Part shown: positions 1 to 13,076 of the stretch, in pieces
Numbering within the stretch: the first letter of the stretch is position 1
Layout: each line of letters starts with the position of its first letter
NCBI GenBank assembly: GCA_040754315.1
Contig: JBFMCS010000008.1
Coordinates: forward strand, 1 to 45,070
DNA: 45,070 nt
Reading direction: 5' to 3'
DNA from: Bacillota bacterium
GTDB lineage: Bacteria; Bacillota; Sulfobacillia; DUSP01; JBFMCS01
The notes under the pieces: generated by a model
Seen by the model: the letters and a program-made list of their open reading frames with translations, nothing else
Database searches by the model: none
What the model was told of the DNA's origin: nothing
Program-made: the position numbers and the translations under genes

Positions 1-120
1 CCAACCATTCCCCACTCCCTATCACTGGGAACACCTCCACCTTCACCGGTATTGATGTTCCCTCTTTGATGGGGGGTGGGGAATTTCATTCTGCTCCTTT
101 TGGGGATTCTAAACCTGTTG

Positions 121-157
121 CTGACAGGGTCAATGTCAGTTCTCCCATACTGACATT
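121..157. repeat. Nested inverted repeats, possible IS terminus
   Basis: A 9-bp perfect inverted repeat (AATGTCAGT at 132-140 and ACTGACATT at 149-157) surrounds an 8-nt loop. A further CTGACA copy at 121-126 can pair with TGTCAG at 134-139. Clustered TGTCAG/CTGACA motifs of this kind occur near the ends of some insertion sequences, and this end of the window is AT-rich with transposase debris nearby. The rest of 1-277 holds no convincing coding region. It could equally be a transcription terminator, but no strong T-run follows. Confidence 0.35.
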
Positions 158-277
158 TTCCCTTATTGGTTAAGTACTGTCTTTATCGTATAACAACGAC
201 AGCGCAACACCTCCAAGTGGATCAGTTTCATTCTAGCGTTCGTATTAAGTGTGCGGAAGATGTGTTAGAGTTTAAAA

Positions 278-2809
278 TTAGGCCTGATGCAGCCGCCTAC
301 CCCGCCACAGCAGCCAGCCTGCAGCCAGTATAGTCACAAACCAACCTGTATACACGGCAGCGCTCGCCCCATAATGCATGGTGACTGTGTGCTTCCCCGG
401 CGGAAGAATTAGAAGGACGAGATCCTCGTGCCTGTATGCAGGGATAGGTTCGCCATCAAGGTAAGCGTGCCAGCGCGGGGTATGGGTAACGGAAACAATT
501 ATCGGCTCTGTTTCCTTTGCTTCATACGCAAAGGAGACACCTTTGTGATCCCAGTGAGTCCATATCGTCTCGAAAGGTTCAGGGGTTATCCCTTTCCTAG
601 GTTTCCCCAGGTCTAGTAACGGCTCTAAGAGCAGACGCGCTGCTTCCTTAGACTCAGGCTGGATAAGCCTTGGTACATGCAGCCCCGTAAGATAGATCTC
701 TCCCTGCGCGGTTTCTTTTACACCTACGGCGGCATATGCCCCTTGATCGCCGTAAAAAGTAAGCAATACCCTGTCCAGTTTTTTATAGAACGCCCCTCTT
801 CCTTCTTTTAATTTAACAATTACATCTTCGCTATATATATTAAGATTATCGCTTGTGGGCAGAAGGTTTACTACCCCATTCACAGGCTTCTCAAAGTGCC
901 ACACGCCAAATATCTCCGGAATCTTATCCGTTGCCGAAAGGTCCAAAATGACGGTCTTCCCTTTACGCAGCCATCCTTCAATGCGTTTCTCTAGCTCAGC
1001 AATATTAAGTCCGGGGATATCATAGAGATAGATAACTTCAAAAAGGTCAATATACGCCTCGTCATACTCCAAAGGATTCGGCGCCCTCCCCTCGCTTACC
1101 CAGGGAAAGAGCCGCGCCACGTAATAGCTGCTTCTTCCAATGACAAGCACATCGGAATGGAGTTTCATAAGGTAGGTGGAGGGGTAATCCCAAGTAAATA
1201 CAGCTGTACCATTACTGTTTGCATGTAATGACCATCCCAATTCCTCAATGTAAGTCGAAATATTCTTCAGGTGACCAAATCTTTGATCTAAAATAGATGA
1301 CCGGACGTTTAGTAAATACCAATTTCGCAGGATATAATCAAGATAATCTTCGTCGTAAGAAATGTTGTGTTTAATGATTCTTTGCGCATGCGCTGTTCCC
1401 TCAATATTCCAGCCATATATTGTGTTTAAGCCGTAGCTAACGGGGAAGAAAGCCGACTCACTGCCCGTGTCGGGAAGTTCAGCAGCAATACGTCCATTCT
1501 GGAATGGATTACTGCCGGAATTGGGTATGGTACTTATTAAATATCTCATATGGACGTAATCCGTAGGTTCTTTTATCGGAATAAGTGCAGAAGAAAAAAC
1601 AATAAATAACGATAGTGGCACTCCAATAATCAACCCAAGAAATTTACTCATTCTACATGGTTTATAGTTTCTTATTGTCCACTGAGTAAAGCCTTTAATT
1701 AAAAACCCACCCAATAATGCCGCAGGTAAGTCTGCCGCGTTTAAGAAACGCACAGGCGCAAGGCTATCCTTCATTGGCAAAAGAGAAAAAAGCGGATTAT
1801 TATCTCCAATAGCTAAAGAAGTCGTTACTATCCACATAAGAACAAGGCCTAACCAGATAAACGTTCGCTCAATTAGATAATAACCCAGTAGCGCACCCAA
1901 TAAAGCAAGGGCATATGCAGGAAAAGATATAACCGGGGAAAAGCTGGGAACTAATAAATCTCTTATCGTAATTACAAAAATCTGGGCTATGCCTGCTGGG
2001 AGCCATGGAACACCTGAAGTTTCCCACTGCGTTACTCCAGGTACAGACCAATAGCCGGTTAATGTTACACCGACCAAGAGGACTTCTGCAGCCATTACCA
2101 CTTTGTTCCACGGCCTATGCCATTGTAAACACCAGATCAGGTAGAACAAACCAATCCCTATACATAGAAGATATGCATGCATTGCATGGGCCAGGATCAT
2201 TAAAGCAATAAGCAGTGAACAGTAAAACAAGGTTCCTTTTGCCGGTCTTTCGCCCAAACTTAGCATCTTATAAAAAAGCAGGGGATAAAGGGGGATGGTA
2301 ATCGCCCTTCCTAATGTGCCATCATTAAAAACAGTAAAAAGGGTATAATGTCCAAGGGTATAGAGAAAAGCGGAACATAACGCTGCAACATCGTCTCCGC
2401 CGAGCTTTTTTGAAAGCTTGGCAGTGAATATTCCTCCCAAGAATAGGCAACTCCATATCAGAATCTTAAAGGTAAGCATGATATTCCCTGTTAGCATCTG
2501 CACTAAAGCACCAACCCAGACGCTCAAGGGAGGATAGTATTGAACAACAGTTGCACCGGCGTACCATCCTGGAAACCAATCAGAGAATTGCAGGTTCCGC
2601 CAGCGTTCTGCCAGGTATGCAACTTTGGTCAGATGTCCCATTGTGTCAATGCCATATGGAAAAAGCTCGTTGGAAGCGCTAAGGAGAGGCCAGATGACAG
2701 CGGTGCAGGCGATTGCCAAAGCAGGAACAAGATAACACCAGCAAGCTACGGCGGCGTCTAGCTTTAGCCTTGATTTAATAAGACCTTCCTGTTGTTTAGG
2801 AGCGGACAT
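278..2809 (-). CDS. PTPS-related multi-pass membrane protein (YfhO/GT-C-like)
   Basis: An 843-residue membrane protein. The N-terminal half has about a dozen hydrophobic segments, beginning near residue 22. It carries the luminal-loop pattern (Y-G-x-D-T-x-G-H near residue 52) seen in the large GT-C-like membrane proteins labelled '6-pyruvoyl-tetrahydropterin synthase related'. A hydrophilic, probably extracytoplasmic C-terminal half follows, ending in one more helix and a basic tail. It has no PTPS domain of its own but resembles the membrane part of the 1168-aa protein at 8125-11631, with the same order of helices, outer domain and final helix. I chose ATG 2809 because AGGAGA sits at the proper distance; an upstream in-frame TTG at 2824 has no good site. 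It lies beyond a decayed IS that probably split it from the operon upstream. Likely role, by inference: transfer or export of lipid-linked sugars. Substrate unknown. Confidence 0.75.
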   Translation of the reverse strand: MSAPKQQEGLIKSRLKLDAAVACWCYLVPALAIACTAVIWPLLSASNELFPYGIDTMGHLTKVAYLAERWRNLQFSDWFPGWYAGATVVQYYPPLSVWVGALVQMLTGNIMLTFKILIWSCLFLGGIFTAKLSKKLGGDDVAALCSAFLYTLGHYTLFTVFNDGTLGRAITIPLYPLLFYKMLSLGERPAKGTLFYCSLLIALMILAHAMHAYLLCIGIGLFYLIWCLQWHRPWNKVVMAAEVLLVGVTLTGYWSVPGVTQWETSGVPWLPAGIAQIFVITIRDLLVPSFSPVISFPAYALALLGALLGYYLIERTFIWLGLVLMWIVTTSLAIGDNNPLFSLLPMKDSLAPVRFLNAADLPAALLGGFLIKGFTQWTIRNYKPCRMSKFLGLIIGVPLSLFIVFSSALIPIKEPTDYVHMRYLISTIPNSGSNPFQNGRIAAELPDTGSESAFFPVSYGLNTIYGWNIEGTAHAQRIIKHNISYDEDYLDYILRNWYLLNVRSSILDQRFGHLKNISTYIEELGWSLHANSNGTAVFTWDYPSTYLMKLHSDVLVIGRSSYYVARLFPWVSEGRAPNPLEYDEAYIDLFEVIYLYDIPGLNIAELEKRIEGWLRKGKTVILDLSATDKIPEIFGVWHFEKPVNGVVNLLPTSDNLNIYSEDVIVKLKEGRGAFYKKLDRVLLTFYGDQGAYAAVGVKETAQGEIYLTGLHVPRLIQPESKEAARLLLEPLLDLGKPRKGITPEPFETIWTHWDHKGVSFAYEAKETEPIIVSVTHTPRWHAYLDGEPIPAYRHEDLVLLILPPGKHTVTMHYGASAAVYTGWFVTILAAGWLLWRGRRLHQA

Positions 2810-2917
2810 ATTAGTCTCCTGCAAAACCAGTGTATTCCTAGCTGGTTCGATCTAACGAAAGGGCATTGGTGTTGATACCTACCACATGCCCTATCCCCTC
2901 ACTTTGGTGAGTTGGGG

Positions 2918-4168
2918 CTATGTAGCCGGACTGAGGCTGGCAAGACGAGTGATATTGTGGGTCAGGATGCCAAGCCTCACCCAGCACTGTGTTCCATCAA
3001 GGCCGTCCATGAGACTCTTTCTTTCAATCCCCCCTCGCCAGCGCATGGTCCGGCGGAAGGAGGGCTTTGCCTCCAAAAGTCGCCGCTCTTTGGACCTCCG
3101 TCCGTTCCTTTATTGACCCCAATGTCCCTTGACTCTTCCTCAAGGCTTTATCCCGCTCATCCCGGGGGCCGCCGTCAGGGTCTTGGGAAGAGACCCGGTG
3201 CTTTCTTCATGTCCCTTGGCCGCATCGATTACAATCTCCCCGTCAGGCAGGTTCCCCCTTGACCTCATAGTGGCTAACGAACCCCTCCTTTGGTTTCAGT
3301 GATGCAGACCTTCCTTCCAAACTCCGTCCTTTTCCCCGCCTTGCCTTTCACGATTGGCCTTGCGCCATGCTCATGAACATGATCTCCGGTTCCCCTTTAT
3401 CACCTCACATGCCTGCTGGATCAGTCGCTCCGCCAGGCACATCGTCCAATTCAGCACAGTGACTGCCCGGTGGGCTTGGTACCCGGCCTTACTACCCAGT
3501 TCCTCCAATCTCCGCCTGGCTTCATCCAGGCCAGTCCGGGCAGCCTTCATCGTCTCGCGTGCGCGATCCCCACAATTTCCTGGGTGAGCCCGTTGATCTT
3601 CTCCATAAAGCCCTTCTTACTCATCCGGGCCGCTTGATTGACCTTTACTAGCCGCTTCTTGGCGCTCCTTGTCCGACGTGCCCGAGGTCTACTAACTTCT
3701 TCACCACCCGGGTTATCTTCTTTATGCCATCCAGCAAAAGACTTGCATCCGTCGGGTGATGTATGTTCGCTCCCACCACCGTGGTATCCACGCGCACCGT
3801 CAGACTCCTTAGCACCTTCTCCTCTTTAGCCTTCTGCACCACGAGATCATTGAAATTAAGCTGCTTTACCACTTCGGGCCCGAACTTCTTGTCAGTTTCA
3901 CCAGCGTACCCGGGTCAGGCAGCTTATCCGCCATAGAGAAACCGTAAAACGTTCTCCACTTTATACTGTCGGAAACCTCCCGTACCAAGCTTTCGTAACT
4001 CAACTGGTAGGCATGTTTCAGGTACATAAGCCTCAGGCATTGATCTACCGGCACGCACGGTCTGCCCATGTGTAACTTGACCTTGGACTCCTGCATCTTT
4101 CTAAAAAACGGCTCCAAGAACCGCTGGTCCCTCAGCACCCTGTCCACTTGTTCCAGTTCCTCTCCCAA
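2918..4168 (-). pseudogene. Degenerate DDE transposase (IS5/ISNCY-like element)
   Basis: The minus strand holds consecutive pieces of one transposase in different frames. The N-terminal part (4168-3866) has the conserved block around L-H-x-G-R-P and the 'LKHAYQLSYESL' stretch. A second frame (3872-3648) has V-R-V-D-T-T-V-V then NIHHPTD, typical of the catalytic domain around the first Asp. Later fragments to 2918 resemble the C-terminal block with 'FRRTMRWRGGIE' and 'GLDGTQCWVRLGILTHN'. There are at least two frameshifts and several stops, so it cannot make a functional enzyme. I could not identify terminal inverted repeats or target-site duplications by eye. It sits between two genes of the glycan locus and probably interrupted that operon. 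The exact IS family is uncertain. Confidence 0.8.
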
Positions 4169-4386
4169 CTAGAAAAGCGCCGGTAAAGTAGCCTTTCATA
4201 TATCCACCTGGTCTTTCTTGGAGCCTTCAAGCACCAACATTTCCTGTCGCCTCCCCTCTACATGGGGATTTGACATCGATGCCTCAAATTCCTGGTTACA
4301 GTAACCGGAAATTACTCAGATCCTCTATTCTTCTAACTCCTGCCTCACCCTCTACCAGCGGCACTCTCCCGAGCTTTCAGGTCGAA

Positions 4387-5157
4387 CTAACTAATACGTA
4401 GCCCTCTGCCAAGGGGACACCTTCTTTTCGGCAGAAACAATAAGCGCAGGCTGTCGTAGACGGTGGCCAGTATTTTTAACTTGCTGGCGCTTTTTTTGGC
4501 CCCGTATCTAACGGTAAACGGCACTTCTTCGATGGTACCCGCAAAGGGGGCCAGTTTTAAGAGCAGCTCCACCGTTGCCGAGAAGCTCCGGGAAGCCAAG
4601 AAAGGCCATTTGCCAGTGGCGAGGGCCTGGCTGACAAGCGAACTGCGGTAGGCGCGAAAATTGATTGTATAGTCTGTAACTCCACGCAGCGGAAAGGCCA
4701 GATGGTAAAATATCTTTGCCCCAATACTCAAAAAGCTGCGCAAGAAAGGCACTCCGTCCTGCCCTCCCCCTTTAATATAGCGTGAAGCGATGGCAATATC
4801 AGCGCCGGCGCCAATTTTAGCGACAAGTTCGGCGATAATCTCCCCCGGGTGAGTGGCGTCCGCGTCCATAGTAACAATACAGGTCGCCCGGGCTTTCATA
4901 GCCTCGGTGAAACCTGTGATAATCGCCTCCCCCAGGCCCCTGTTTTGCGTATGGGAGACAATGATTGCCCTGCTGCCGGCCAATACCCATTTGGTGGCAA
5001 GCTCAAGAGTGTTATCGCTGCTGCCATCATTGACTATGATGATGAGCGGGCTATAACCTGGCGGCAATGGGATTTCCTTAAACATCCTTTGTAAGGCAGG
5101 AATTGATTCTGCCTCGTTGTACATGGGGAGAATTATGGCAACAAGATCATCCCGCAT
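4387..5157 (-). CDS. GT2 glycosyltransferase, dolichyl-phosphate mannosyltransferase-like
   Basis: A 256-residue family 2 glycosyltransferase of the DPM1-like type, which moves a sugar from a nucleotide donor to a polyprenyl phosphate on the cytoplasmic membrane face. Visible motifs are ILPMYNEAES near residue 9, NDGSSD near residue 43 for nucleotide binding, and the metal site DADATHP near residue 100. There is an R-x-x-S-x-x-S-x-G segment typical of these enzymes. It has no C-terminal membrane helices, unlike bacterial GtrB-type members, so it resembles the single-domain archaeal and eukaryotic DPM1 forms. A GGAGTG ribosome site precedes ATG 5157. It follows the SMR-like gene by 46 nt, matching the common pairing of a polyprenyl-phosphate-sugar synthase with a small flippase. 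The sugar is unknown; mannose is possible given manCB nearby. Confidence 0.85.
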   Translation of the reverse strand: MRDDLVAIILPMYNEAESIPALQRMFKEIPLPPGYSPLIIIVNDGSSDNTLELATKWVLAGSRAIIVSHTQNRGLGEAIITGFTEAMKARATCIVTMDADATHPGEIIAELVAKIGAGADIAIASRYIKGGGQDGVPFLRSFLSIGAKIFYHLAFPLRGVTDYTINFRAYRSSLVSQALATGKWPFLASRSFSATVELLLKLAPFAGTIEEVPFTVRYGAKKSASKLKILATVYDSLRLLFLPKRRCPLGRGLRIS

Positions 5158-5203
5158 GACATATCACTCCAATAGATAGTTTCTCAGAACAACATATTGA
5201 CGC

Positions 5204-5569
5204 TCAGCGGTGCAGAAAAAAAACCCCTGCAAGGATCATGGAAAACCCTAGAAGCTTAGAGCCGCTAACCGCCTCCTTAAAGAACAGAACGGAGAAGAGA
5301 AAAACCATGATATAAGAGATACTAACGCTCGGGTAGGCCCTACTAAGCTCCATGCTCGCAATGACCTTAATCCAAAGGACCATACTGGCGACAAAGCAAA
5401 ATATAGCGGAAAGAACCCAGCCATTCCAGAATATTCGCATAAGGGTATAGGGGATCGACGGCCAGGCCAAGTTGCTCTCTCCCATATTATGGGTCGCAAA
5501 TTTCAGCAAAATCTGGCCGCATGCTCCCAAGAAGATTGAGATGAATAAGCTGGCTAGAGTACTATTCAA
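5204..5569 (-). CDS. Small four-helix SMR/EamA-type membrane protein (ArnE-like)
   Basis: A 121-residue protein with four predicted membrane helices (about residues 3-22, 45-66, 72-92, 100-119). It has the EamA/SMR signature 'LSRAYPSVSISYI' in the third helix and a closing G-x-x-L-I-x-A-G-V pattern. Small proteins of this kind include drug exporters and the ArnE/ArnF flippase of lipid-linked aminoarabinose. Its position between two GT2 genes, 24 nt after the first and 46 nt before the second, argues for flipping a lipid-linked sugar rather than drug efflux; that is inference from context. The start is TTG 5569 with a partial AGGCGGTG ribosome site. A single copy is seen, so it would act as a homodimer or with another partner. 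Confidence 0.75.
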   Translation of the reverse strand: MNSTLASLFISIFLGACGQILLKFATHNMGESNLAWPSIPYTLMRIFWNGWVLSAIFCFVASMVLWIKVIASMELSRAYPSVSISYIMVFLFSVLFFKEAVSGSKLLGFSMILAGVFFLHR

Positions 5570-5593
5570 GTTTTTTCACCGCCTATTTGTTAT

Positions 5594-6955
5594 TCACAAA
5601 CCTATTGCCCTGCGAAATTGACGTCTATAGCCCCTAAATATCTCCTTTAACTGGTCGACTGGATATTGCACTCGCCAGCTTTTCTCTTCTGTGAGCACCG
5701 TAATAATCCCGGCCAAGCGAAACCAGTAAATGAGGTGCCTGTATACAGGCAGTAGAAAAACAATCCACCAGATTTTCTTCATTTCGCAGCGGTAGAGCTT
5801 GGGGCTGTATTTATAGACCATAAGAAAGCTAGCCGTATCTAGGATGGTATAGCAGGCCAGCAATACGATCAAGGCAAGAAACACCGTATCGATAGAGTAG
5901 CCGATAAAATACAAAAAAAACAAAAGGAATGTCCAGCTAAAACGAACCAGCGCCAGCGTATGATCTGAGATAAACATGCGCCCAACAAAGTTCCTGAGGT
6001 CGCTTAAAAGGCTTATTCCATGTTGCTCATTTATTGCTATCGCTTCAATCTGACCCCGCTGCCAGCGCAAACGCTGGGCGTACAGCTGGGCAAGGGAATT
6101 AATGGGCTCAACATAAGCCACCGCGTCAAGCACACAGCCAACACGACGTTGTTGTTTCTCTTGCGCATGTTTTATACAAAAAGTGAGGTCCGTATCTTCG
6201 GAAACCGTCCGGTCCTGGTATAAAAAGGTCTGAAGGAGCACATCGCGGCGAAAAATGGAAAATGCGCCGGACAGAGTAAAAATAGAATCTCTAAGCCCAT
6301 GGTAACGGCGGCCTATGTTGAAGGCTAGCATATACTCAATGACTTCGCAATAATTCAGCAAATCGACAAAATTGTAGCCGTCCCCGATTTCTTTATCCAC
6401 GCGTATAAGCCCAGTAGCGGCAGCCAATGAGCCGTCATTCTCAAAAGACTCAACTGCCTTTAAGACGGCGTTTTTGTCCAGCCATGTATCCGAATCCACG
6501 TTCATCATATATGTCCCGTTGCCGTGATAAAACCCTGCATTTAGGGCAATGGATTTTCCCGCTCGCTCCATAGAGATCCAGTTGGTATTTATGTCCGCAT
6601 GAGCGTATTGGAATTCCTGGAACACTGTAAAGCTATCATCCTTGCTGCCGTTATTTACGCAAATGATTTCAAGCTTCTCCTTGGGATAGTTCTGCTTGTA
6701 CATAGAATCCAGGCACTGGTAAAGGGTGCCGGCCGAATTGTGAACAGGTATAACCAGTGTAACTAAAGGATAAAAAGCCAAACTGCCTGTGCCCCGTGAT
6801 ATTTTCCCCTTTGTTCTTGCGCTGTTCCCTTCGTCTAAGAACAAACCGGCAAAACACTTGGCCATAGCTGACACATCCACCAGCAGTGGCGCCAGTAACC
6901 AGATGCTCCAAGAGAGGAGCAAGCTTATACTCCGCTCCCATAGAATTTCAGGCAC
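5594..6955 (-). CDS. Processive GT2 glycosyltransferase, exosortase-G-associated type
   Basis: About 453 residues. An N-terminal membrane segment is followed by a GT2 domain with VIPVHNSAGT, VNNGSKDDS, the metal motif D-S-D in 'NVDSDTWLD', E-D-T-D-L, and the Q-R-L-R-W acceptor motif of processive synthases such as cellulose and hyaluronan synthases. Two or three helices follow near residues 330-410. The neighbour is an exosortase-G-like gene; I recall a named family (TIGR03111) of glycosyltransferases associated with that sortase, and this protein fits it in length and context. Start choice: GTG 6955 lies nine bases after GGGGAG, whereas ATG 6964 abuts it, so I prefer GTG. It overlaps the end of the exosortase gene by 8 nt, implying translational coupling. 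Confidence 0.85.
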   Translation of the reverse strand: MPEILWERSISLLLSWSIWLLAPLLVDVSAMAKCFAGLFLDEGNSARTKGKISRGTGSLAFYPLVTLVIPVHNSAGTLYQCLDSMYKQNYPKEKLEIICVNNGSKDDSFTVFQEFQYAHADINTNWISMERAGKSIALNAGFYHGNGTYMMNVDSDTWLDKNAVLKAVESFENDGSLAAATGLIRVDKEIGDGYNFVDLLNYCEVIEYMLAFNIGRRYHGLRDSIFTLSGAFSIFRRDVLLQTFLYQDRTVSEDTDLTFCIKHAQEKQQRRVGCVLDAVAYVEPINSLAQLYAQRLRWQRGQIEAIAINEQHGISLLSDLRNFVGRMFISDHTLALVRFSWTFLLFFLYFIGYSIDTVFLALIVLLACYTILDTASFLMVYKYSPKLYRCEMKKIWWIVFLLPVYRHLIYWFRLAGIITVLTEEKSWRVQYPVDQLKEIFRGYRRQFRRAIGL

Positions 6956-8144
6956 GCTTAACATCTCCCCGTACTTTGTTAATGGAAGGCTGTGTCAAAA
7001 TATGCCAGTAGAGAGCGATAATCACGGCAAAAAAGAAAACCCGACCGAACAAAGTGTGCGCCACGAAGTTAAAACTACGCCCACCCCAATAGATTAAGGT
7101 GGTAATGAGCAAGAGGCGCACCAAGTTAAAAAACCCAAGCGTCGCGGTGCCCACGAGGATATAGTACAATTTACGGCCAGCGCCGTAGGCAGGATAGAAT
7201 AGCACAAGGCCGAGCAAAACAGCAATTTCAAATAGGGCTGAACTTTCAATATCAATATTTAGTGTGGTCCAGCTATTGTCTGTCTTGATAAAGACCAGGA
7301 TCGTGCCCGGTGATTTATCGAAGACATAAGTCAATATGCCAAATTCATTAAGAATATGGTGCAGGACCATACCTGTCCAGTACTCAATGGTGTACTCCAG
7401 CAGCGTACCCCTGACCGCCAGGATAACAATGATGGTGAAGCCCACAGCGCCCAAGACATAGTAGAGGGGCCAGATGCGGTAATGGTAGAGGGCCGCTGTG
7501 GCAAGCAGCCAGCATATGGCAAAAATGGCAATGCCGGACCTGTCTCGGGTAACCACTGGAAAGACCTTCCACTGCACGTCTCCATCAACAGGCAGGCGGT
7601 CAGCGCTGAGGCCGGCTGCTGCAAGATAAAAGCGGATTGGCTGCGCCGGGTAAATGTTCAGATCGGACATGGGCAGGTAAAATTCAAAGCCGCCCCTGCC
7701 GCTGTCGCTCTCCTGCCCCCACATTCCCTCGTACCCATTAATCAGATTCCCGCTGGAGGAATAAAGTTTAACTTCCACTGTGCCCCCTGCAAAACCGGGT
7801 ATGCAAGAGATCTCCGCATACTTATCGATCCTATCCGTATATGATCCGTTATCGTCTATATCGAGAAAGAGCCTGCACAGGAGATGATCTCCTGGTGCCG
7901 CAGGGTTTTGCAGTTTTACCGCAAAATATATCTTCCTTTCGTTTTCGTTCGTGGCCCAGTGTAACGATGCAAAAAGGTTGGCTCCTTTCCCTGTAGCTTC
8001 GCTAAGCGAGGCCCGGCCCCGCCACTCCTGTAACTGGCCATCTATCTGTATATCTTGCACAAACAGCATGCCAGAAGGCAGGAAATATATTGTTACGATA
8101 AGGGCAGCCAGGAAAACGGCTATTCTATGCGGTAACTTGCCCAT
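6948..8144 (-). CDS. xrtG: Exosortase-G-like membrane protein with CBM9-like domain, catalytic Cys replaced
   Basis: A 398-residue protein. A signal-anchor helix (about 7-27) is followed by a soluble beta-rich domain (about 32-195) that opens with I-D-G-Q-L-Q-E-W, as in CBM9-like carbohydrate-binding domains, and has a calcium-type D-I-D-D-N-G loop. About six helices follow (203-385) and match the exosortase/archaeosortase fold. The Arg motif (N340-x-x-R343) and the His motif (A-H363) are present. The catalytic Cys position, normally E-C-S-G, reads E300-S301-S302-A: codon AGT at 7244-7242, one base from TGT. Exosortases cleave C-terminal sorting signals and transfer the protein to a cell-surface target; with Ser this copy may be inactive or altered. 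No target protein with a sorting tail is visible in the window. The RBS is weak, and the upstream gene overlaps by 20 nt. Confidence 0.8.
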   Translation of the reverse strand: MGKLPHRIAVFLAALIVTIYFLPSGMLFVQDIQIDGQLQEWRGRASLSEATGKGANLFASLHWATNENERKIYFAVKLQNPAAPGDHLLCRLFLDIDDNGSYTDRIDKYAEISCIPGFAGGTVEVKLYSSSGNLINGYEGMWGQESDSGRGGFEFYLPMSDLNIYPAQPIRFYLAAAGLSADRLPVDGDVQWKVFPVVTRDRSGIAIFAICWLLATAALYHYRIWPLYYVLGAVGFTIIVILAVRGTLLEYTIEYWTGMVLHHILNEFGILTYVFDKSPGTILVFIKTDNSWTTLNIDIESSALFEIAVLLGLVLFYPAYGAGRKLYYILVGTATLGFFNLVRLLLITTLIYWGGRSFNFVAHTLFGRVFFFAVIIALYWHILTQPSINKVRGDVKRA

Positions 8145-11100
8145 GTTTTTTCACATCTCTATCCCGTTTTTTTATAAACACCAAACCGCCAAGCAGCACT
8201 GCTGGCGAAACAAGGGAGAGTACAAGGCCCCACAGATAAACGGGGGTCCGTTCCAATATGACAGCAATCTCATGTTCACCCGCAGGCAGCTCCATACGTA
8301 CAAGGTTTTCAAATGTAGTATGAGGCCATGGGTTCCCATCGATCTCCGCCCTCATCCCGTCCAGCGCGGCGACAGGGACGACCACATCTAAGTCCCGTTC
8401 GCTACTGTATCGCATCAGGTAGCCGTTTTCCGTAGCCGTATAAGCATCCAGGGGAACCAGCTCCTCAACCATATATTCCCGCTGATAACCGAATGTCTCC
8501 TCAATGACACGCAGTGCCTCGGGGTCCTTGGTCAGGAAGGTGTGATATGAGAGGTTGCCTCCTAAAAACCATACCTTTTGCCCTTCGACCAGCTTGTACC
8601 CCAAAAGAGGAGCATTTACGCCATAGTATTCAAAGTATACCTCTACAACGTCCAGTCCCTGGGGCACATATGTCATCCAAATTCCCATGTCATTCGTAAC
8701 AAAAGGGTCTAATACAATACTCCTACCGCCACGGTCAAAAAGCTCTAGCTGGCCGCTCAGCGTAACTGTCTCGCCATAGATACCGAGAAACTCCGGCTGT
8801 TTGGCCAGGATGTTTTCCGGCAGCCCGGAGAGCTCAACAAGTACCTTGCCCCCGAAAGAGATATACTCACGCACGAGTTGTTCCGCTTTTGTCTTTGACC
8901 ACCATTCTGCGCCGGCAAGAACAATGCTGGGATATCTCATTAATTCTGCCAGCGAATATCTGTCCAGATATGGGGAAGGCCCCACCTCCACACTGGGAAA
9001 CTGGATGGCGATCGTCCCCGCATGCCTGCCGATAACCAGGGTATGATCCTTTTTTACAACGAGGTAAGGACGATTAACCGGCCCGCGCCAGAGGGTGAGG
9101 CCGTCAATACTTGCAGTCTGCTCGTAACCCATTTTTGCGGCCAGATCGGCAAATACTTCTGGTTCGCTAATCACGTCGTCTTTAACCAGCAGGTCTGTGC
9201 CCCCCAGCAACACAGAGGAGCGAAATAAAAAGGGGTAATACTGGTACTCGAGACCCATATTGAGGAGCATAATGTTATAGGAAGTTGTGGCTCCCTGCCA
9301 GGCCCAACCGAAGACCTGCCCTCTGCCGGCTGTTTCAGAAAAGAGGTAAGAGGGGGCCGAACCAAGCCTGCTGAGATCAATGGTGGCAATACGCCATCCG
9401 GGCGCTGCCTTCAGCAGCTCCGTCCCCTCCAGCAGCACATACGATTTCGCCCCTGTATAAGCAAGCAAGCGCAGGGAAAAAAAGCAATCAACCAGGAGAC
9501 TAAGGCCAAGGAGAGATACTATTACAGCCTTCTTAATGCTGCCAGCGGGCACCGGGAATTTATCCTTAAAAGGATAGAGGGCCATGCTCCCTATTATTAG
9601 CGCCAGCGAAGCAAAACTGGAGAAGCGTAGCGGCCAGAGGAGGTGGCTTAAAGGCATCAACAGAATAAAAAGGCGCATGGAGGGGAAGGTAATAACAATT
9701 AGAAGAAAACTACAGATCACAAGGCTTTTTACCCAGGCCGTACTGTTCCGCCAAGCCAAGAGCAAGACGCCAAAGGCAAATAGCAGACTGACGCCCCAGT
9801 AAAATGTTTCCCGGTTGACAAAGCGATAAAAAGGGTCTAGGGAGGTAGCAGCCGGCACGAACTGTATAGCAGCACGGACAGCTTCAGGATCAATCATAAT
9901 TATACCGCCCCTTAAACTGGGCAGCAGCCACCAGCCTGCGGAGATCACACCGACAAATGTCACGAAATAAACCCACACTAAATCCCTCAGCCGGCAACCG
10001 CCAAAAGCCCAGAAAAAGAGACCAAAGAGGGCAAGGCTGAGGCAATATACTGCCCCCATCATGGCATGGCAGAGGATGGTCAGGTGTACCAGCAAAACAG
10101 TTAGCAGTATTATTAAGTAGTTCTTCTTCCGTTCTTCCAACAATTTCAAAAACAGAAAGAAGAGTAACGGCAGCAGCGCTGTGGACAATACCCTGGGGAG
10201 GTTCCCTTCAGAAAAGGCAACCCTTACATTATCGATCCAGACAGCCCAGATGACGCCTGCCAGTGTGGCAGGCCAGATACCGATCCTGCCGGCAAAAAAA
10301 AGCAGGGACAAACCTCCCAGGAGGGCGGACACAAAAACATAATAATTGCCGGCCATAAAAATGTCGGTGCTAATGAATCTCAGCAGGGATATTACGTAGT
10401 AGGAGAGCGGCGCCCAATAACGAAATGGCTGGACACCGCTATACCAGTATTCGGTGAATTGGGGAAAATAATTCCCCTGCAGCAGCTGCTCAAACAAGAA
10501 CTCGGCCTTATAAAGATGGCCCCATGTATCGGATCCCCAGGGATAGTGCAACCTGAGCTGAGGGTTAACCACCTGGTAATAAGCAAGGAAGGTTACAAGC
10601 GTTATGAGCAGCCCATGCAGGGCGTAGCGATAGGCAGGATAAGAATAACTGGTTGAAGGGGTGCCTGGTGGTCTGCCAAGGCGGAGTTCCCGTATCGCCC
10701 CTTTATCTTTTTTGCCCCTAGAGGGCGATGGCGGCATTTTTTCCCCTTGGTCTAAGGAGGGACCGGCAGCCGCCGTGGCCACCACGTCTTTGACCAGATC
10801 CAGCGGGATGTTGTCAAACTCGGGATTGCGCCGGGCGACCTCAATACCCTTCGTAGGAGTTTCCCATACAGATAATTTGCCCTGTGCCAGGCCAAATTCA
10901 AGGAGAATATCCTCAAAACGGTTGAAGAAAAACATGGCTATGTTCTCTGTAGCGGGCTGGAAAAGATTAAAAGGGTGCTGCTCATTAAGCAATGTTTTCT
11001 CGTAACAGGCTATAACTGAGTTTATGGACCCCATGATCTTGGCAAAAGGTATCAGTTCGCTTTTTTCGGGAGGTATTTTAATCTTAGTATGGATCTGCCA

Positions 11101-11631
11101 GGAGTGGGCATGGATCGGCCCCTGATTTCCGTCAAGGATAACATAGTGCCGCGCGTTGAGGAAAGAAACAAGCTGGATCGTGTAGGCTGAAGGATCAACA
11201 AAAAAACCGCCCACCTGCGTGGCGGAGGGAACCCCCTTGCCCTCCCTTACTGCCCCAGCATCGACATAATCGCTTTCTTCCCCCACCTCGCTTGCTGTGG
11301 TATCATAAACCAGGCTTTGATAAAAGGAGAGCTCTTCCTTAGCCTGCACTATTTCTTTTTCTATCAGGGTTAGATTGGCTTTGGTGAGTGCAACCCTCGC
11401 CCCTGCCTCCGCCAAGATACGTTCCACTTCAAAATTGGCTTTTTTCTCAATCTCCTGGGCAAGTTCATCGGCCTTGAGAATTGCCACTTCAATGTCTTGG
11501 CTTTCCTTTGTCTTATCCTCAATTGATGCGAGCAGATTCCTTTTTTTTCCTTCGCTCAATCGTTTCTTTTCGAGCAAGTTGCGCAATTCTTCTTTTAATT
11601 CTTTTTGGGACTTAGAGGAGGAGGAAAGCAA
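8125..11631 (-). CDS. Coiled-coil + PTPS-related domain + multi-pass membrane protein fusion
   Basis: 1168 residues in three parts. Residues 8-105 are a highly charged coiled coil. Residues about 150-265 are a 6-pyruvoyl-tetrahydropterin-synthase-like domain: zinc ligands are conserved (H162, H174, H176 in 'IHAHSW'), and so are TENIA and VWET, but the usual catalytic Cys before the H-x-H is missing. After a Pro/Gly-rich linker, about a dozen helices (335-760) with W-G-S-D-T-W-G-H near 375 form a GT-C/YfhO-like membrane domain; then comes an outer domain and a last helix near 1135. The family 'PTPS-related, exosortase G associated' (TIGR03112, from memory) fits the middle domain. The start is uncertain: TTG 11631 has only a weak ribosome site and the frame is open a little further upstream. 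The substrate is unknown; pterin chemistry seems unlikely. Confidence 0.8.
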   Translation of the reverse strand: MLSSSSKSQKELKEELRNLLEKKRLSEGKKRNLLASIEDKTKESQDIEVAILKADELAQEIEKKANFEVERILAEAGARVALTKANLTLIEKEIVQAKEELSFYQSLVYDTTASEVGEESDYVDAGAVREGKGVPSATQVGGFFVDPSAYTIQLVSFLNARHYVILDGNQGPIHAHSWQIHTKIKIPPEKSELIPFAKIMGSINSVIACYEKTLLNEQHPFNLFQPATENIAMFFFNRFEDILLEFGLAQGKLSVWETPTKGIEVARRNPEFDNIPLDLVKDVVATAAAGPSLDQGEKMPPSPSRGKKDKGAIRELRLGRPPGTPSTSYSYPAYRYALHGLLITLVTFLAYYQVVNPQLRLHYPWGSDTWGHLYKAEFLFEQLLQGNYFPQFTEYWYSGVQPFRYWAPLSYYVISLLRFISTDIFMAGNYYVFVSALLGGLSLLFFAGRIGIWPATLAGVIWAVWIDNVRVAFSEGNLPRVLSTALLPLLFFLFLKLLEERKKNYLIILLTVLLVHLTILCHAMMGAVYCLSLALFGLFFWAFGGCRLRDLVWVYFVTFVGVISAGWWLLPSLRGGIIMIDPEAVRAAIQFVPAATSLDPFYRFVNRETFYWGVSLLFAFGVLLLAWRNSTAWVKSLVICSFLLIVITFPSMRLFILLMPLSHLLWPLRFSSFASLALIIGSMALYPFKDKFPVPAGSIKKAVIVSLLGLSLLVDCFFSLRLLAYTGAKSYVLLEGTELLKAAPGWRIATIDLSRLGSAPSYLFSETAGRGQVFGWAWQGATTSYNIMLLNMGLEYQYYPFLFRSSVLLGGTDLLVKDDVISEPEVFADLAAKMGYEQTASIDGLTLWRGPVNRPYLVVKKDHTLVIGRHAGTIAIQFPSVEVGPSPYLDRYSLAELMRYPSIVLAGAEWWSKTKAEQLVREYISFGGKVLVELSGLPENILAKQPEFLGIYGETVTLSGQLELFDRGGRSIVLDPFVTNDMGIWMTYVPQGLDVVEVYFEYYGVNAPLLGYKLVEGQKVWFLGGNLSYHTFLTKDPEALRVIEETFGYQREYMVEELVPLDAYTATENGYLMRYSSERDLDVVVPVAALDGMRAEIDGNPWPHTTFENLVRMELPAGEHEIAVILERTPVYLWGLVLSLVSPAVLLGGLVFIKKRDRDVKKHGQVTA

Positions 11632-11666
11632 CCTTGTATGGCTTGGAGTAATGGCGACTCGCCCCC

Positions 11667-12182
11667 TCAGGAACCAACCCTTTTACGCAGTATACTTTTG
11701 ATCGCCTCCGTTGCTCTCTCGTTTTCTAACAACGTCAGCTGGGGCGCAGGTTCTTTAGGTAAAGTGCCTACATTTTCAATGGAAAAGCGGTACCCGTCGA
11801 GCAGCTCCTTAAACTCCTGCTTAAAAAGGGCCAGCTTTTCCTGCAACCGTTCCAATTCCTGTCTTTTTTCCAAGAGTTCCTTTTCTGTCAACTCCAACAT
11901 GGCCTTTGCCTGCCGGCGGGCATCTTCCTCAAGCTGCACCGCTTTCTTCTGGGCCAATACCATTACTTCAACAATAGATTGCTCGCGGGCTATATAGTTT
12001 TCCAATTTTAACTGCAGGGTTGTAACTTCGGTTTCAACTTGTTCCAATTCGCTCTTTGTTTTTTCAATCTCAGCCTGCAAAGCAGTTGTTTCTTTCTCAT
12101 ATGCAATGTCAAGACGCTTAATCTCATTATGCACATCTTCAGGTTTATATCCTAAGAATGATTTCTTAAATGATATAGTCAA
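11667..12182 (-). CDS. DivIVA-like coiled-coil protein
   Basis: A 171-residue protein starting with a DivIVA-type membrane-binding head: F9, G11-Y12 and D16-V17 match the F-x-G-Y-x-x-x-x-V pattern. It continues as a nearly unbroken coiled coil (about 25-150) rich in Glu, Lys and Leu, with a short C-terminal tail. DivIVA proteins sense curved membrane at poles and septa and recruit partners through their coiled coils. It is the first gene of the operon: TTG 12182 follows an excellent AAGGAGGAGG site and a promoter. The next gene starts about 35 nt on and itself begins with a coiled coil, which suggests the two proteins bind each other. It is shorter than the main cell-division DivIVA of most Firmicutes, so it is likely a dedicated paralogue. 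Confidence 0.75.
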   Translation of the reverse strand: MTISFKKSFLGYKPEDVHNEIKRLDIAYEKETTALQAEIEKTKSELEQVETEVTTLQLKLENYIAREQSIVEVMVLAQKKAVQLEEDARRQAKAMLELTEKELLEKRQELERLQEKLALFKQEFKELLDGYRFSIENVGTLPKEPAPQLTLLENERATEAIKSILRKRVGS

Positions 12183-12212
12183 TCTCTTCCTCCTCCTTAA
12201 GCTTCATTACTC

Positions 12213-12242
12213 ATTATACATAATTATGGTTTCAGAATTCAA
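12213..12242 (-). promoter_or_regulatory. Sigma-A-type promoter of the exosortase-G-like operon
   Basis: On the minus strand, TTGAAT (12242-12237) is separated by 18 bases from a perfect TATAAT (12218-12213), followed by the ribosome site and TTG start of the DivIVA-like gene about 30 bases on. It is the only obvious promoter ahead of the closely packed genes down to 4387. Confidence 0.65.
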
Positions 12243-12377
12243 CACCTTTTTTCCCAAAAGGAAAAGAGTCTAATAATAAGGTTAATGGATGGAAAAAATT
12301 CATTATTTCTATTCTTATCAACAAGAAAGGTACTTTATGGAAACGTTGCATTAGGTAGAAAGCAATCAAACCTGGAT

Positions 12378-12614
12378 TCAGGTATAGTAAGGGGCCAGCA
12401 GTAAAAGAACTGACTGGAGTTCGGTAAGCGTTGTCTTGGCCTCTAGAGGGGTACTGGGGTGGGCCGCGACTCGCTGGTATGGTGTTTGGACTTTGTTGCA
12501 CGTTTTCTTCACCTTTGAGCCCTGCCTTTCCTTGCGTTCAAGGACCATTACCGGCTCAAAGTAGTTGGTGTAAAGCCTAGGCAAGTTGTTGCAGATTCCC
12601 GTGAAACCGGCCAT
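12378..12614 (-). pseudogene. C-terminal remnant of an integrase-type transposase
   Basis: The minus-strand frame reads 'NNLPRLYTNYFEPVM', then 'GSKVKKTCNKVQTPYQRV' and an alpha-helical tail. This matches the C-terminal region of integrase-core transposases, where an LYxNFFxP segment is followed by a GSK-[VK]-KR-Y-D-x-x-x-TPYQRV block. Only about 75 residues remain; the catalytic core is absent, and upstream sequence on this strand is not recognisable. It sits at the junction between the AT-richer left island and the GC-rich chromosome, suggesting the scar of an insertion event. Confidence 0.6.
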
Positions 12615-13076
12615 CTGTTCCGGAGTTTTCGCCGGGACGGAGCGAAGCGACGCGGATTGTTATGGATAATATATCCGGGTGGCCGGGATCAGTCAAGTTG
12701 GCCGGTCTAAATCCCAAATGGGGTGGCGCCGCCATCCACCGAGAAAGGCGGCCGGTTTGGTGCGGAATACGCAACCTGTGGCGGCATGGACACTCAACCG
12801 CTATTTCCAAGAAACAGTGGCCGTCACCAGAACCCTAATGGCTATCACCCGGCTACCTTCGAGGTCTTGCCTGTGTAGCGTACCTCGCTTACGATGTCAC
12901 CGTGCAGGTGATGAGCCCTTCCCCTCTCTACAAGTAGCGTACTACTATACTTGCGCTAGTGCGCTAGCACATAGATTACTTGAACCTTGCGTACGCATAC
13001 TAAGGAAGGAAGATCGGGACTTGGTGTGTAAGGTATCAGGCGTCCCCAAACCCAGTTGAGTAGGGAGGTTCAGAGC
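12615..13076. other. Gene-free junction region
   Basis: No convincing coding region. Open frames exist on both strands, but their products are low-complexity, Arg- and Pro-rich and lack motifs. Base composition changes here from AT-rich to GC-rich. The last bases hold the ribosome site GGGAGG (13063-13068) for the ferritin-like gene. Confidence 0.5.

Follow-up and report, generated by a model that had tools for sequence, protein, structure and literature searches.

The closest described relatives of the locus reported here are the XrtG/Firmicu-CTERM systems (TIGR03110, TIGR03111, TIGR03112 and TIGR04145), for example those of Lactiplantibacillus plantarum (PMC12854382) and of the Lactococcus plasmid pBV60. 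We analysed a stretch of 45,070 nucleotides (the window) from a Bacillota bacterium of the class Sulfobacillia (contig JBFMCS010000008.1 of assembly GCA_040754315.1, positions 1 to 45,070 of the forward strand). Genes A to G at its beginning share with the described systems an XrtG domain, a TIGR03111 synthase, a PTPS domain, a PF10131-type protein and a substrate ectodomain beside xrtG. In contrast to these systems, substrate and XrtG are a single protein in the window, the nucleophilic Cys is gone and this protein, encoded by gene C, stays under the XrtG cut-off. In addition, a DivIVA-like gene and a DivIVA-type coil on protein B are present.

To our knowledge, no pseudo-exosortase has been described; our literature search for one found none. 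A search for papers that treat exosortase and DivIVA together was likewise empty. In Streptomyces, the tie between the polysaccharide synthase CslA and DivIVA is one between separate proteins. Like the pairing of CslA and DivIVA at hyphal tips (PMC13432765 and a work cited in PMC3924036), the window links a GT2 polysaccharide synthase to a DivIVA scaffold; it differs in that the glycan operon starts with a DivIVA-like gene of its own and a partner enzyme contains the coil type. Rhomboid pseudoproteases (PMC3237569) likewise retain a membrane protease fold without the active-site residue, but they belong to another fold family and are not fused to their own former substrate. Finally, the pairing of a DPM-like transferase (F) with a small flippase (E) recalls the three-component glycosylation systems ArnC/ArnE-ArnF and GtrB/GtrA. 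In contrast to these, the pair in the window would serve a GT-C-like PF10131 protein, and E stays under the ArnE and ArnF cut-offs.

Substrate fusion and loss of the nucleophile

The decisive feature of the locus is an exosortase that carries an extra N-terminal domain of about 200 residues, its substrate, and lacks the nucleophile. It was missed by the preliminary description of the window, which listed C as an exosortase-G-like protein. The features of C are the following.

6948-8144, minus strand: gene C, CTERM-substrate ectodomain fused to a Cys-less XrtG, 398 residues (alignment to both halves)
7545..8057, minus strand: beta-rich N-terminal ectodomain of C (BLAST and alignment to secreted CTERM proteins beside xrtG in loci L009, L012, L076 and others)
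6951..7544, minus strand: XrtG-like exosortase domain of C (TIGR03110, 89.6 bits; TIGR04178 over cut-off)
7242..7244, minus strand: Ser301, codon AGT, at the invariant catalytic Cys position (alignment; IESSA versus IECSG)
7116..7118, minus strand: Arg343, retained catalytic Arg (15/15 fused, 16/16 unfused)
7056..7058, minus strand: His363, retained catalytic His (15/15 fused, 16/16 unfused)

Residues 1 to ~200 of C align to a separate secreted protein of related loci, and residues ~205 to 398 align to XrtG. Relatives of the same class encode the two parts separately: xrtG has about 200 codons, and the gene before it specifies a secreted protein of 245-355 residues. After its signal peptide and ectodomain, this protein ends in a tail composed of motif, helix and basic residues. 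The separate substrate of L009 passes the IPTL-CTERM model (23.9 versus 20.5), and the one of L076 gives a weak match to Firmicu_CTERM (TIGR04145) that lies under the cut-off (E 8e-4 over positions 1-75). A Firmicu-CTERM gene occupies the equivalent place in xrtG loci annotated in Lactococcus lactis and E. eligens, and also in that of L. plantarum (PMC12854382). For the N-terminal half of C, TIGR04145 gives no direct match. A substrate encoded elsewhere in the genome, where the preliminary description had suggested looking for proteins with an exosortase-G sorting tail, is rejected because the TIGR04145 search of the genome is empty even at E 10; the substrate domain is fused in cis. At the junction, the CTERM motif W-(A/S)-P-(I/V)-P-(T/I) of the separate substrates has become W-x-x-F-P. 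The substrate's own helix is gone, and the first transmembrane helix of XrtG (TM1) comes after the motif remnant. From hydropathy and charge, TM1 of C is predicted to run out-to-in with a basic end.

The curated TIGR03110 cut-off of 102.75 is not reached by C (91.7 bits in the genomic search) and its closest relative L016 scores 100.6, while the superfamily cut-off of TIGR04178 (23) is passed with 38.8 bits (44.1 genomic). C descends from XrtG and is clearly placed within the exosortase/archaeosortase superfamily. It should not be filed under XrtG proper, because it is under the curated cut-off and has neither the catalytic Cys nor a separate substrate.

Position 301 is Ser or Asn in 16/16 intact fused loci and in the broken copy L023. 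The Cys is kept in 22/22 unfused loci, including three annotated xrtG genes (L116-L118); the motif of the unfused proteins is E-C-S-G, or A-C-S-G in L083. The 16 unfused cores compared share 27 invariant columns, and of these only Cys301 is missing from all 15 fusions. Apart from C301 and F383, these columns (25 of 27) persist in most or all of the fused proteins, and Glu300, Ser302, Asn340, Arg343 and His363 are retained in every fusion. Asn occupies position 301 in 9/15 fusions, with two switches between Ser and Asn on the tree. The pairwise ratio of nonsynonymous to synonymous substitution rates (dN/dS) is 0.04-0.22 for both halves of C, similar to gene D, and selection on both halves is purifying. 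Such a pattern is that of a selected pseudoenzyme and not of decay, and the fused proteins would have lost catalysis. With the exosortase superfamily model, the fused gene is the sole match in 12/13 fused genomes (in G561 on two near-identical contigs), so that no second, active exosortase that might act in trans is found in these twelve; the genome of L021 holds two additional family members.

The XrtG core tree alone is too short to resolve the sister group and we therefore used a tree of gene D with 32 rows. The 14 fused rows are a single clade with support of 100/99, and five unfused loci with the Cys (L076, L110-L113) are its sister group, also joined at 100/99. A smaller tree gives the same result. 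Because the fused rows form one clade with a Cys-bearing sister, fusion and loss of the Cys arose once, or close together.

The DivIVA-like gene and the coiled coil of B

Upstream of C, the operon begins with a DivIVA-like gene, followed by the gene for a large membrane protein.

11667-12182, minus strand: gene A, DivIVA-like, 171 residues (PF05103 E 4.5e-8, 33.6 bits versus cut-off 28)
8125-11631, minus strand: gene B, DivIVA-type coiled coil, PTPS and PF10131 GT-C-like membrane protein, 1168 residues (exact start uncertain)
11317..11610, minus strand: N-terminal coiled coil of B, DivIVA-coil-like (hhalign and PF05103 comparison)
10834..11163, minus strand: PTPS (TIGR03112-like) domain of B (PF01242 47.7 bits, over cut-off; TIGR03112 68.0 versus 69.35)
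8542..10425, minus strand: PF10131 membrane domain of B (495.7 bits)

Gene A is additional to two housekeeping DivIVA genes of the same genome, both on contig C32 in the genome scan. In several other carriers, the DivIVA-like A likewise comes on top of one or two housekeeping DivIVA genes, and each of the six relatives in the class whose XrtG is unfused has a single DivIVA, away from the locus. Across the aligned A proteins, the N-terminal membrane-binding motif K-x-(F/L)-x-G-(Y/F)-x-P-x-x-V is largely conserved. A DivIVA-like gene lies directly before B in 11/12 fused loci with upstream DNA, the window included; L074, L075, L108 and L115 end too soon upstream to be counted, and the broken L023 is left out. 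In L110, which is unfused, Cys-bearing and has a separate substrate, a DivIVA-like gene is also found directly before B. The DivIVA-like head that the preliminary description placed at the front of the operon is thus real and conserved, and its link to xrtG extends beyond the window. The preliminary description would have been refuted by a DivIVA-like gene that is never linked to xrtG in other genomes, and this check did not refute it. A strict tie of DivIVA to the fusion is rejected, since L110 has DivIVA together with a separate substrate and the Cys. As it is present in the unfused L110, the DivIVA-like gene probably joined the locus before the fusion.

The coil of B is centred around S-x-x-E-S-x-x-I-A-x-E-I-E-x-K-A-R-x-x-A-E-x-I-L-A-E-A-E. 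Its comparison with the gene A family by hhalign gives prob 92 and E 6.6e-7 over 81 columns. PF05103 is the top match for three of six B N-termini (L016, L022 and L075; E 1.6e-5 to 1.4e-4, under cut-off). The DivIVA-type coil is present in every fused B with a readable N-terminus and in L110, and was not found in the unfused B N-termini examined, among them those of L111 and L076. From these alignments, B coil and DivIVA-like gene go together, with L019 as exception.

Some related loci are arranged differently. The contig of L017 bears the fused locus a second time, as the broken copy L023, and ahead of this copy a gene for a PilZ domain (51 bits; L023 6178-6696) lies where the DivIVA-like gene would be. 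In L110, DUF2304, DUF3473 and GNAT-type genes, possible glycan-modifying enzymes, stand between B and the substrate gene (9657-13032). In L077 (2013-5915), L079 (9785-13675) and L080 (8870-11320), B carries the substrate ectodomain as a C-terminal fusion, and XrtG is separate and keeps its Cys. This branch has a second way to fix the substrate to the machine.

The putative glycan genes

Six genes, A to F, lie consecutively on the minus strand from 12182 to 4387. The seventh, G, lies past a transposase remnant.

5594-6964, minus strand: gene D, TIGR03111 XrtG-associated GT2, 456 residues (364.7 bits versus 363.95; processive-type QxxRW, QRLRW)
5204-5569, minus strand: gene E, ArnF/ArnE-like small flippase, 121 residues (EamA over cut-off)
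4387-5157, minus strand: gene F, DPM-like GT2, 256 residues (PF00535)
278-2824, minus strand: gene G, second PF10131 membrane protein, without PTPS, 848 residues (PF10131 187 bits)

D resembles PgaC. E lies below the equivalog cut-offs of both ArnF (69 versus 99) and ArnE (38.7 versus 92). At the place equivalent to E and F, L072 has a DPM-GtrA fusion. F and E, or this fusion, point to a flipped polyprenyl-phosphate sugar, and D, E, F, B and G together would suit an exported, decorated polysaccharide. Profile scores bear out the named genes A to G of the preliminary description, all on the minus strand, as well as the known neighbours of exosortase G, with synthase D just over and PTPS-related B just under the respective TIGR cut-off. 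It had also taken the flippase/DPM pair for a new element. This does not hold, as the pair occurs in unfused, Cys-bearing XrtG loci without DivIVA (L009, L010, L012, L013, L076 and L079).

The genes were further described as one system under one promoter with nearly unbroken overlaps. The order A-B-C-D is kept among loci down to ~40% identity; this linkage is conserved and not due to chance, in agreement with one system. Overlaps are found for B/C (20 bp) and C/D (17 bp), but A-B, D-E and E-F are separated by 35, 24 and 46 bp. A strong ribosome-binding site, AAGGAGGAGG, lies upstream of A, preceded by the following site.

12213..12242, minus strand: promoter-like site, TTGAAT-18-TATAAT, ahead of gene A (consensus match only)

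The promoter scan overall is no better than shuffled sequence (15 sites versus 14.5), and the promoter-like site at 12242-12213 is therefore supported by its position only.

Discussion

With fair confidence, we read the locus as a localised exopolysaccharide machine derived from XrtG that has given up sorting and keeps the former substrate attached to a pseudo-exosortase. The preliminary description had favoured a surface polymer over ordinary protein sorting, and the missing nucleophile and the fused substrate give a stronger reason for this. More tentatively, and with slightly less than even weight, we propose a clade of pseudo-exosortases, substrate-fused and nucleophile-less, that are a structural part of a glycan-export complex sited by a dedicated DivIVA-like protein.

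In the ancestral state, the Cys of XrtG would cleave and re-anchor the neighbouring secreted protein with its CTERM tail. In the fused clade, TM1 of XrtG has taken the place of the substrate helix, with the same predicted direction and basic end, and the Cys is gone. Loss of the Cys makes sense because an enzyme that still had it would cut its own fused substrate in cis. The ectodomain would then be permanently displayed outside on the pseudo-exosortase, beside the synthase, and would probably handle the emerging polymer by guiding or binding it. D (PgaC-like, with QxxRW) would make the polymer, F and E would make and then flip a polyprenyl-phosphate sugar, and the GT-C-like B and G would use this sugar outside the membrane. 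On the cytoplasmic side, A may bind curved membrane at a pole or septum and gather the synthase by contact with the N-terminal DivIVA-type coil of B.

It is quite unlikely that the fused exosortase still works, with Ser301 or Asn, or Ser302, together with Arg343 and His363 cutting in cis or ester-linking a lipid or glycan. The invariance of Arg343, His363, Asn340, Glu300 and Ser302 across the fused proteins would fit a working enzyme, and the junction still offers the motif remnant (FP), a helix and a basic end. However, Asn, which is no normal nucleophile, stands in most of the fusions and has interchanged with Ser on the tree, the tail motif of the substrate is altered, and archaeosortase A (ArtA) requires Cys173, Arg214 and Arg253 (PMC9263693). 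We regard as very unlikely an ordinary XrtG exopolysaccharide operon with a decaying exosortase, in which DivIVA is an incidental scaffold or leftover neighbour. The broken copy L023, the insertion sequence (IS) remnant inside the window operon and L019 without DivIVA-like gene would fit such decay, but the low dN/dS of both halves and the conservation of the exosortase core do not, nor does the DivIVA-like A, which stays with the B coil in 12 loci. A local role of A, as an oligomerisation partner of B without placement at pole or septum, is compatible with the rest of our preferred reading and is only somewhat unlikely. A is divergent, with 30-34 bits compared to 99-150 for the housekeeping DivIVA copies of the same genome, and where DivIVA has a conserved F-R tip, the A proteins have F-L or L-F. 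Against a purely local role, the hydrophobic tip and the G-(Y/F)-x-P-x-x-V segment of the membrane-binding end are conserved.

Several points weigh against the pseudo-exosortase machine that we prefer. Fusion and loss of the Cys fall on one branch, so that their correlation is not independently repeated, and most loci are metagenome bins. Ser could act as nucleophile in the members that have it, and the invariant neighbour Ser302 is likewise conceivable. L019 has the B coil but no adjoining DivIVA-like gene, and the sole DivIVA match of this genome lies elsewhere. The PF05103 scores of the B N-termini stay under the cut-off, and similarity between coiled coils is easily inflated. For the ectodomain, with a predicted model of pLDDT 76.6 and pTM 0.78, neither of two PDB fold searches nor a profile search returned a significant match. 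A test for a CBM9/DOMON-type fold found no Pfam match and no PDB match at E 0.001, and a match to dopamine beta-hydroxylase reaches a prob of 0.84 only. Because no structural match is significant, glycan binding by the ectodomain is a guess.

The fused clade represents a natural experiment on the role of XrtG and its partner. It kept nearly everything but the sorting nucleophile, which suggests that the substrate belongs beside the synthase complex and that cutting is dispensable once substrate and exosortase are fused. A direct test for a non-catalytic role of the exosortase fold becomes possible. Glycan operons that include a DivIVA-type scaffold are rare, and the locus adds one.

Surroundings and origin of the operon

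The element that separates G from the rest of the operon is the following.

3648..4168, minus strand: remnant of a DUF772/ISNCY transposase between F and G (100-residue piece at 3866-4168)

In L017 and L012, G adjoins E/F and the operon with no IS between. The first 12 kb (positions 1-12500) have a G+C content of 45-51%, compared to mostly 59-65% elsewhere on the contig. Among 154 genomes of the class, the genome of the window is the sole carrier of the fused form, and the nearest relative is a Dethiobacter bin. Because of this distribution the operon was probably acquired, and the 12-kb region is a likely acquired island. No RNA families were found in the window.

The gts operon of L. acidophilus, a possible XrtG locus, is linked to cyclic di-GMP (c-di-GMP; PMC6123363). 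On the Lactococcus lactis plasmid pBV60, a diguanylate cyclase gene and an EAL gene immediately precede the full XrtG/Firmicu-CTERM cluster (L116 3568-8294). This neighbourhood, together with the PilZ gene of L023, suggests c-di-GMP control of the XrtG system.

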